Of a stretch of DNA of 64,000 nt, positions 52,261-54,252 are shown one piece after another. Positions within the stretch are counted from its first letter, which is position 1, and each line of letters opens with the position of its first letter. This DNA is from Clostridiales bacterium (GTDB lineage Bacteria; Bacillota; Clostridia; Christensenellales; UBA1242). The notes below the pieces were generated by a model. That model did not search any database. It had not been told where the DNA came from and worked only from the letters and a program-made list of their open reading frames with translations. The stretch spans positions 105,774 to 169,773 of the forward strand of contig SVHM01000001.1 in assembly GCA_015055815.1 (NCBI GenBank), in the 5' to 3' direction. The translations under genes and the position numbers were made by a program.

Positions 52261-52319
52261 GTTCACTTCAAGTCTGGTATAAGCAAAACAAAAAGACCCT
52301 TGCGGGTCTTATTTGGTGC
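52261..52319. repeat. Direct repeat copy 1: module tail, tRNA-Leu terminator and the last nucleotides of the tRNA-Leu 3' end
   Basis: GTTCACTTCAAGTCTGGTATAAGCAAAACAAAAAGACCCTTGCGGGTCTTATTTGGTGC; repeated at 53283-53342 with one indel. Confidence 0.95.
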
Positions 52320-52387
52320 AACGATTGATAACGAATACGAACCATAAAGTCTTTATCGGATATGGTTATTTTGTTGTTAGAGTGAAA

Positions 52388-52978
52388 TTATAGTTGTCTT
52401 TCTGGTTTATTAATTTTTCTAACAATTTCGTTTAATATAATTTCTGACCAAGACTCGAAATTTGTAATATTGTTCAAACTATCAATATCAACAAATTTAC
52501 ATTTACCGTCTGTGAAAGTAGTATCAAATGATTTTTCAATAAATATTGGAAATATAACTCCTAAATGTTTTGCCGACTTTTCCGAAATCGGAGTGTATGT
52601 TAATATTGGGTTGTTTGTCTCAACATCTTTAACTTCTAATCCTAATTCTTCTAATATTTCTCTTTTCATTCCATTTGTAAAAGTTTGAATGTTAGAATTG
52701 GACATGTCAAAAATATCTAAATGACCACCAACATATAACAAAGTTTTATTTTTCTCGGGAGATGTTTTGCTTGTAGATTTTGAGTTCTTGTTTATTATCA
52801 AAATTTGGTTGCCTTTTGTAATAATTACACCTGCACAAATTGGTTGAACGACATCTATTCTGTCTTCAACAATATCTCTATACCCATATTGAATTTCTAT
52901 ATCTTTTAATCTATCTATTGAATTTAATCCACTTGTAAGATTTAAATTGCCTTTATTAATATAACCAATTTTTTCCAT
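52388..52978 (-). CDS. NUDIX hydrolase-like protein
   Basis: GGHLDIFDMSNSNIQTFTNGMKREILEELGLEV (Nudix box with an insertion). Confidence 0.8.
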   Translation of the reverse strand: MEKIGYINKGNLNLTSGLNSIDRLKDIEIQYGYRDIVEDRIDVVQPICAGVIITKGNQILIINKNSKSTSKTSPEKNKTLLYVGGHLDIFDMSNSNIQTFTNGMKREILEELGLEVKDVETNNPILTYTPISEKSAKHLGVIFPIFIEKSFDTTFTDGKCKFVDIDSLNNITNFESWSEIILNEIVRKINKPERQL

Positions 52979-53163
52979 ACCACAAGTATAACACACTATT
53001 ATTAAAAGTGGTATAGTTTTAACAAAAAAAAGAGAAAATTTTAGATTTCTTCTCTCTTGTGTTTAGTTGTTGCTTGTGTCTTTGTTTTTAGTGTTTAGTA
53101 AAGCGTCAACACTTTTGGCTAATAAAAAACAACCCAAACACTCTGGTTTGGAATAGTTTTCTA

Positions 53164-53336
53164 TGGTGCTGGTGCCCAGACGTGGTGCAGACAATGTAAT
53201 TGTCAAATTAGCGAAGAGCATAGCTCGAGCGTCACAGGTACGATAAGTACCAGTTGATGTATGAAATACATCGTGAACGATAGTTCACTTCAAGTCTGGT
53301 ATTAAGCAAAACAAAAAGACCCTTGCGGGTCTTATT
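53164..53336. repeat. tRNA-Leu-associated hairpin module L1 (173 bp)
   Basis: Starts with a tRNA-Leu 3'-end copy TGGTGCTGGTG; core GGTGCAG-hp-CAAATTAGCGA-hp-GAGCGTCAC; ends just before the genuine tRNA-Leu 3' end at 53337. Confidence 0.88.
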
Positions 53337-53342
53337 TGGTGC
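53283..53342. repeat. Direct repeat copy 2 (partner of 52261-52319)
   Basis: GTTCACTTCAAGTCTGGTATTAAGCAAAACAAAAAGACCCTTGCGGGTCTTATTTGGTGC. Confidence 0.95.
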
Positions 53343-53423
53343 TGGTGACCAGACTTGAACTGGTACGGTTGTTACACCGCAGGATTTTAAGTCCTGTGCG
53401 TCTGCCGATTCCGCCACACCAGC
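53337..53423 (-). tRNA. tRNA-Leu (UAA)
   Basis: GCTGGTGTGGCGGAATCGGCAGACGCACAGGACTTAAAATCCTGCGGTGTAACAACCGTACCAGTTCAAGTCTGGTCACCAGCACCA; encoded CCA, long variable arm. Confidence 0.97.
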
Positions 53424-53627: not shown

Positions 53628-53681
53628 AAATCTAAATCACGTCAATAAGCGAAAAAAAGAAACCCATTAGGTTTCTATTTA
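53628..53681. repeat. Truncated tRNA-Gly module remnant (tail plus terminator)
   Basis: TCACGTCAATAAGCGAAAAAAAGAAACCCATTAGGTTTCTATTTA matches the module tail (..TCTCGTCAATAAGCGAAAAAAAGAAACCCGTTAGGTTTCTATTTA). Confidence 0.8.
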
Positions 53682-53862
53682 TGGAGCGGAAGATCGAGTT
53701 CGGTGCAGTCACGCTAGTGACAAATTAGCGATAGACTAAAGTCTGAGCGTCACTAAGCGACATTCGGAGCGAGTTCCTTTGCGTGTAAGCAAAGCATGTT
53801 CGCTAGAACATGTGAATCTCGTCTATAAGCGAAAAAAAAGAAACCCGTTAGGTTTCTATTTA
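53682..53862. repeat. tRNA-Gly-associated hairpin module G1 (181 bp)
   Basis: Starts TGGAGCGGAAG (tRNA-Gly 3' end copy); core at 53702-53753; T-arm halves GCGAGTTC and GAATCTCGTC separated by hairpins. Confidence 0.92.
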
Positions 53863-54044
53863 TGGAGCGGAAGATCGAGTTCGGTGCAGTCACGTTAGTG
53901 ACAAATTAGCGATAGACTATATAGTCTGAGCGTCACTAAGCGACATTCGGAGCGAGTTCCTTTGCGTGTAAGCAAAGCATGTTCGCTAGAACATGTGAAT
54001 CTCGTCAATAAGCGAAAAAAAGAAACCCGTTAGGTTTCTATTTA
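53863..54044. repeat. tRNA-Gly-associated hairpin module G2 (182 bp), tandem copy of G1
   Basis: Near-identical to G1; hairpin 2 is AGACTATATAGTCT instead of AGACTAAAGTCT. Confidence 0.93.
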
Positions 54045-54119
54045 TGGAGCGGAAGACGAGATTCGAACTCGCGACATTCGCCTTGGCAAGGCGACGCTCT
54101 ACCACTGAGCCACTCCCGC
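54045..54119 (-). tRNA. tRNA-Gly (GCC)
   Basis: GCGGGAGTGGCTCAGTGGTAGAGCGTCGCCTTGCCAAGGCGAATGTCGCGAGTTCGAATCTCGTCTTCCGCTCCA. Confidence 0.97.
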
Positions 54120-54120
54120 A

Positions 54121-54252
54121 TATTTAATTATTTGCGTTCGCCTTGGCAAGTCTCGCTCAACCACGCTTACTGCCGCCACTCCCGCATATTTAATTATTTG
54201 CGTTCGCCTTGGCAAGTCTCGCTCAACCACGCTTACTGCCGCCACTCCCGCA
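54121..54252 (-). repeat. Two 66-bp tandem degenerate copies of the tRNA-Gly 5' half
   Basis: Minus strand unit GGGAGTGGCGGCAGTAAGCGTGGTTGAGCGAGACTTGCCAAGGCGAACGCAAATAATTAAATATGC; CCCGCA starts at 54115, 54181 and 54247 (period 66). Confidence 0.9.

Follow-up and report, generated by a model that had tools for sequence, protein, structure and literature searches.

The stretch of DNA analysed, referred to here as the window, comprises 64,000 nucleotides and corresponds to positions 105774-169773 of contig C8 of the source genome, designated G000. The locus of interest is read on the minus strand and begins with an intact tRNA-Leu(UAA) gene (anticodon taa) at 53337-53423, identified using ARAGORN, whose 3' GCACCA is the type of target used by the cassette family described below. 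Following the tRNA in the same direction are its native terminator (53308-53333, exact match), a 173-bp module of class A (53175-53301), a displaced tRNA-Leu 3' end (53164-53174), a segment carrying a NUDIX-like gene (52320-53163), a further GCACCA, the terminator again and a truncated second module. The displaced end, CACCAGCACCA, is the third copy of the tRNA 3' end (TGGTGCTGGTG), and its GCACCA (53164-53169) forms the left border of the NUDIX segment. The second GCACCA (52314-52319) forms the right border and is followed by native sequence (52261-52313), consisting of terminator copy 2 (52285-52310) and the truncated module, which extends to 52261. The spacing from CCA to CCA is 850 bp. A direct repeat of 59/60 bp with one indel (52261-52319 and 53283-53342) includes the AGACCC..GGGTCT terminator and TGGTGC. 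In these respects the original prediction, made from the letters of the window, was accurate, since the coordinates of the repeat, of the third tRNA-end copy and of the NUDIX reading frame all hold; it overlooked the two conserved ends of the cassette and the spread of the module across the genome.

Between its two GCACCA copies the cassette contains, in order, a left end with a terminator-like hairpin (53124-53163), which resembles the left ends of sister elements and is a putative attP half-site, the remnant of a recurrent 86-aa ORF (53063-53116, ending ..AKSVDALLNTKNKDTSNN*), a cargo gene encoding a divergent NUDIX-like protein of 196 amino acids (52388-52978) and a right end in the form of a conserved imperfect palindrome (52320-52381), the second putative attP half-site. 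The NUDIX-like protein scored 16.5 bits against PF00293 (E 0.0085), below the cut-off of 21.1, and matched PDB entry 3e57 (TM1382) with an E value of 5e-6; a box reading GGHLD..REILEELGLE was spotted by eye. AlphaFold prediction from the single sequence yielded a pLDDT of 29.5, too low for the fold to be of use. Comparison of the gene with its homologue in genome G053 gave a dN/dS of 0.23, which indicates that it is under purifying selection. An inverted repeat, ATACCAC..GTGGTAT, surrounds the likely NUDIX promoter at 52976-53015 and is a possible operator.

The same locus in a sister species (G014) is without the NUDIX gene, and consists of tRNA-Leu, module, displaced tRNA end, terminator, truncated second module and a dCMP deaminase-like gene. 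When the flanks from G000 were joined without the 850 bp, they aligned in register with G014 through the displaced tRNA end. The 850 bp are a real and discrete insertion at a copy of the tRNA 3' end, and the proposal that the NUDIX gene is cargo inserted at a tRNA 3' end, with the tRNA end repeated at its borders, is borne out by this empty site. The presence or absence of the segment in relatives had been suggested as a check; the gene was found in only 3 of 149 genomes of the family. The copy in G096 is 99.3% identical to that of G000 at the nucleotide level and lies behind tRNA-Arg(acg), while that of G053 (92% nucleotide identity) is in the second of two tandem cassettes behind tRNA-Leu(tag). 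The lexA and xer genes of these three genomes are just 73-79% identical. Judged from these comparisons, the NUDIX cassette has moved between species and between tRNAs by horizontal transfer.

The right end of the cassette, 62 bp together with GCACCA, was recovered at 20 sites in 16 genomes representing 8 genera, with 88-96% identity, and an alignment of 17 sequences had a mean column identity of 92% including GCACCA. Of 19 right-end loci, 15 have a tRNA-Leu gene (five isoacceptors) or, once, tRNA-Arg(acg) upstream in the same orientation, and the remaining four are cut by contig ends. The genes that precede the right end differ, and encode NUDIX, GNAT, RlmN/Cfr-like radical SAM, SDR and Ham1-like proteins as well as several of no recognised type; other genes bounded by tRNA 3' ends, which the original prediction proposed should be sought, therefore exist as different single genes placed before the same right end. 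In cassettes lying directly behind a tRNA, a terminator-like left end, recognisably common to most elements, comes after the CCA of the tRNA. On the other side, 3' of GCACCA, each host's own sequence resumes, mostly with a terminator. Elements of this kind lacking a recombinase range from sub-kilobase to about 1.2 kb, contain one or two genes and recur in several genera with different cargo. A further cassette of G000, sharing this right end, occupies the tRNA's own end at tRNA-Leu(tag) and is followed by a module. The cassette at locus L356 (genome G161) carries the gene for an RlmN/Cfr-like radical SAM methyltransferase, which scored 174 bits against RlmN and 116 bits against CfrAB, both below cut-off. 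Two scans of viral contigs for the right end, the first with too strict a pattern, yielded no match.

The cargo genes are often accompanied by the 86-aa ORF, which is full length in G096, G185 and G252 and fused in G137. It was observed both in elements that bear a recombinase and in elements that do not (loci L348, L352, L357 and L360, and the remnant at 53063-53116), and it had no match in Pfam or NCBIfam. Its product is a candidate directionality factor.

No tyrosine or large serine recombinase is encoded in the window, as had been predicted: the PF00589 matches of G000 are at C8:62976 and C9:3197, and those to PF07508 are on C13 (two), C15 and at C8:224-547. The NUDIX element contains just the NUDIX ORF and the ORF remnant. 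The search for a recombinase that the original prediction recommended succeeded in sister elements, in G185 and G252, where a large serine recombinase frame of 520-560 codons lies between the GCACCA of tRNA-Leu and the same right end. These elements additionally hold a cargo gene and the 86-aa ORF, and the recombinase gene is oriented tail-to-tail with the tRNA. Resolvase (PF00239), Recombinase (PF07508) and zinc-ribbon (PF13408) domains were all detected above cut-off in the recombinase. Both ends of the NUDIX cassette are common to these recombinase-encoding elements, and the target, the 3' GCACCA of tRNA-Leu, is identical in elements with and without the recombinase. The housekeeping Xer encoded beside lexA had been considered as the mover of the cassettes; discovery of the serine recombinase between the same ends led to this idea being abandoned.

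When the whole family was searched at E <= 1e-100, homologues of the recombinase turned up in 110 genomes out of 311. The 30 best placed loci include 11 recombinases with at least 66% identity and available flanking sequence, of which 10 abut tRNA-Leu and the other has no adjacent tRNA; of 17 with 51-61% identity, 14 abut tRNA-Ser. G000 itself has no proven member of the tRNA-Leu clade; the recombinase that comes nearest is fragmentary, lies at the edge of contig C3 and shows 67% identity across 138 aa, and next comes one on C15 (43%). At C1:88700-90482 of G000 (L186) a tRNA-Ser(tga) array contains two genes, one for a zinc-ribbon protein and the other for a GNAT-like protein. Both end in TTCGTTTTACGTTACAC and ACTCTCCNCCA, to which there is an inverted match where the cassette starts; this array is probably composed of cassettes of the tRNA-Ser recombinase clade. 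Contig C9 (L232), which has a tRNA-Ser 3' fragment near one end and a gene for a 293-aa tyrosine integrase at 3.2 kb, carries a separate integrative element.

The attP site of a serine integrase is expected to be an imperfect inverted repeat of approximately 50 bp around the crossover. When the two ends were joined for ten elements, an imperfect inverted repeat was obtained with its best centre at the G of GCACCA or half a base away. For the NUDIX element 17 of 25 positions matched (p 0.0005); one of the ten elements was not significant (p 0.14), and the ten tests are not independent because the right ends are homologous.

Since it shares its ends with recombinase-encoding elements and its joined ends form an attP-like inverted repeat, the NUDIX segment is best read as a recombinase-less, cargo-swapped derivative of such elements, a reading that is well supported by the sequence comparisons. 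We put the probability that it is a non-autonomous integrative element of a large-serine-recombinase family targeting tRNA-Leu 3' ends at roughly 85%. The NUDIX element lacks the recombinase gene and most of the 86-aa ORF, and retains both end half-sites and a cargo gene. Under the proposed mechanism, a recombinase supplied in trans would join the two cassette ends into a circle with the predicted junction ATCAATCGTT-GCACCA-TAGAAAACTATTCC, and the resulting attP of about 49 bp, centred on GCACCA, would recombine with the GCACCA at a tRNA 3' end. The tRNA would remain whole because the crossover would fall within its last six bases, and the element would supply its own terminator. We infer movement in trans, the exact crossover dinucleotide and present-day mobility. 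At the locus under study the cassette used as its target a displaced tRNA end that an earlier 173-bp module, not related to the cassette, had left behind.

Among the alternatives, an integron-type cassette, in which one ORF and an attC-like folded site would be moved by an IntI-type tyrosine recombinase using tRNA ends for attI, shares with the observed elements a single ORF joined to a conserved imperfect palindrome, swappable genes, the tandem of two in G053 and some right-end sites that fold better than shuffled sequences. For the NUDIX site of G000, however, shuffled sequences fold at least as well; the elements are also related at their 5' ends, and it is a serine recombinase that lies between the same ends. 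In addition, GTTGCAC departs from the R' box GTTRRRY and the border lies to the right of GTT rather than at the G|TT crossover, while the two tyrosine recombinases of G000 scored 62 and 65 bits against an integron-integrase cut-off of 265. An integron origin is accordingly improbable. A tyrosine-integrase island at tRNA-Leu that has lost its integrase would fit the fact that tRNA 3' ends are classical targets of such enzymes (PMC4383910), but it is slightly less probable still: the tRNA repeat is just 6 bp and not a long displaced fragment, complete related elements encode a serine recombinase, and nothing resembling the two tyrosine integrases of G000 was found within 8-18 kb around the sites.

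The original prediction regarded the locus as a single array growing at a tRNA end. The insertion of a cassette stands, whereas the 173-bp module is separate, an independent element family and not part of the cassette, so that two systems are superposed. In the copy next to tRNA-Leu (53175-53301) an inverted copy of the T-arm (53289-53300 and 53247-53255) is interrupted by two hairpins (53273-53288 and 53256-53272) and followed by a core (53184-53235), all on the minus strand. Modules of 173-181 bp were observed at 53652-54027 and 53175-53301 in the window and also on contigs C1, C7 and C8 of G000. Their cores fall into at least three classes. The class A core has four copies in G000 (at Leu, twice at Gly and at Ser) and three in G014, and is absent from all others of the 13 genomes of the genus; other core classes occur at other tRNAs, and in total modules are present at over a dozen tRNA genes and at the tmRNA gene. 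A covariance model of class B matched in five other members of the genus and singly in three other genera. Nearly all class B loci sampled are beside tRNA or tmRNA genes, and the displaced fragment mostly begins at U55|C56 in the T-loop. The module core pattern gave scattered chance matches only in the viral_contigs and genome_contigs collections, and the modules had no match in Rfam.

The structure of class B covaries strongly, with a score of 0.42 against 0.13 for shuffled and 0.03-0.06 for slid alignments and double changes in 15 of 18 pairs, figures that are favoured by the alignment having been fitted to the structure. Modules at Leu, Gly, Trp, Met and Ile contain the arm of their own tRNA as an inverted copy, which two hairpins interrupt at the point of insertion. 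Among 34 loci, the antisense segments of 18 match their own tRNA more closely than they match 95% or more of the others, and those of the remainder do not. Counts of G:U wobbles, used as a test of which module strand folds, were 22 against 13, which clearly favours neither strand. A related module sits in the D-loop of tRNA-Lys and tRNA-His, on the 5' side and in the opposite orientation, which argues for a process at the DNA level; the reading of the module as a self-splicing intron was dropped because of this relative. Pairing of the two arm halves with their copies could, together with the two hairpins, create a four-way junction that spans the insertion site, with the conserved folded core coming next. 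Mobility of the module is suggested solely by cores shared at different tRNAs. Tentatively, and at somewhat less than even odds, the modules may represent a new class of small mobile element that would insert precisely in tRNA loops (D, anticodon and, most often, U55|C56 of the T-loop), to either side of the gene, self-programmed and guided by structure through the inverted copy of the target arm, its displaced tRNA ends serving as extra landing sites for serine-recombinase cassettes. As the cassette in the window entered a displaced tRNA end made by a module and not the tRNA proper, arrays of modules may provide additional targets for cassettes. Two repeats of 66 bp, located upstream of tRNA-Gly (54109-54240), mimic the 5' half and anticodon region of that tRNA. 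Module arrays with genes between displaced tRNA copies were observed in relatives at Ser(gga) (L277, a 252-aa protein) and Arg(tcg) (L258, GNAT-like and GrpB-like proteins).

Capture and movement of the NUDIX gene by the 173-bp module itself would account for genes lying between the displaced tRNA copies of module arrays in relatives. It is about as improbable as the tyrosine-integrase island, since many tRNA-Leu loci bear the NUDIX end sequences in genera without matches to the module model, and at tRNA-Leu(tag) in G000 the cassette inserted into the end of the tRNA itself. Local tandem duplication or an assembly artefact around a resident NUDIX gene, with which direct repeats alone are compatible, has a negligible probability given the near-identical gene at other tRNAs in other species, the empty site and the ends in 8 genera; the recent assembly duplication that had been named as a possible refutation is excluded, because the 59/60-bp repeat is beyond chance and the cassette end is present in 15 other genomes.

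A search of the literature on tRNA-targeted cassettes and tRNA-loop elements found nothing relevant. The module is potentially of a new kind; should it prove to be mobile and to have a guide role, it would represent a novel mode of insertion. One-gene cassettes without a recombinase, having moved between species on the same ends, amount to a minimal natural cargo system, and the cassette family is a source of new pairs of recombinase and attachment site. Targeting of tRNA ends is usually credited to tyrosine integrases; here, clades of serine recombinase are split between tRNA-Leu and tRNA-Ser.

Recombinase-less elements with retained att sites are already known, among them CIMEs and pseudo-SCC elements. 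Pseudo-SCC elements of staphylococci have rlmH as their target and are far larger, whereas the target of the NUDIX cassette is a tRNA end. According to PMC6450365, they are cassettes without the ccr serine recombinases, and in this respect resemble the NUDIX cassette as serine-recombinase cassettes that lack the recombinase and lie at the 3' end of a conserved gene. CIMEs are cis-mobilizable elements that have retained their att sites and lost their integration genes (PMC5704250). Like the NUDIX cassette they are without a recombinase, retain both att ends, share a target and are sometimes in tandem; CIMEs, however, derive from conjugative or mobilizable elements, whereas elements of the NUDIX type range from sub-kilobase to about 1.2 kb with one or two genes. 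Integron cassettes likewise combine one gene with a conserved palindromic site, interchangeable cargo and occasional tandem arrangement, and differ from the NUDIX cassette, which has no IntI, another site consensus and border, a conserved left end and a tRNA target. Serine recombinases at tRNA genes were described as not known (PMC4383910), and serine-recombinase elements at such genes, such as mycobacterial AICEs in tRNA-Leu and phage phiRSM1 in tRNA-Ser, were called rare (PMC3218068). The family described here resembles the latter in a serine recombinase choosing tRNA-Leu or tRNA-Ser, and differs from them in comprising two clades, one for each tRNA, in a low-GC family, with a population of recombinase-less derivatives.
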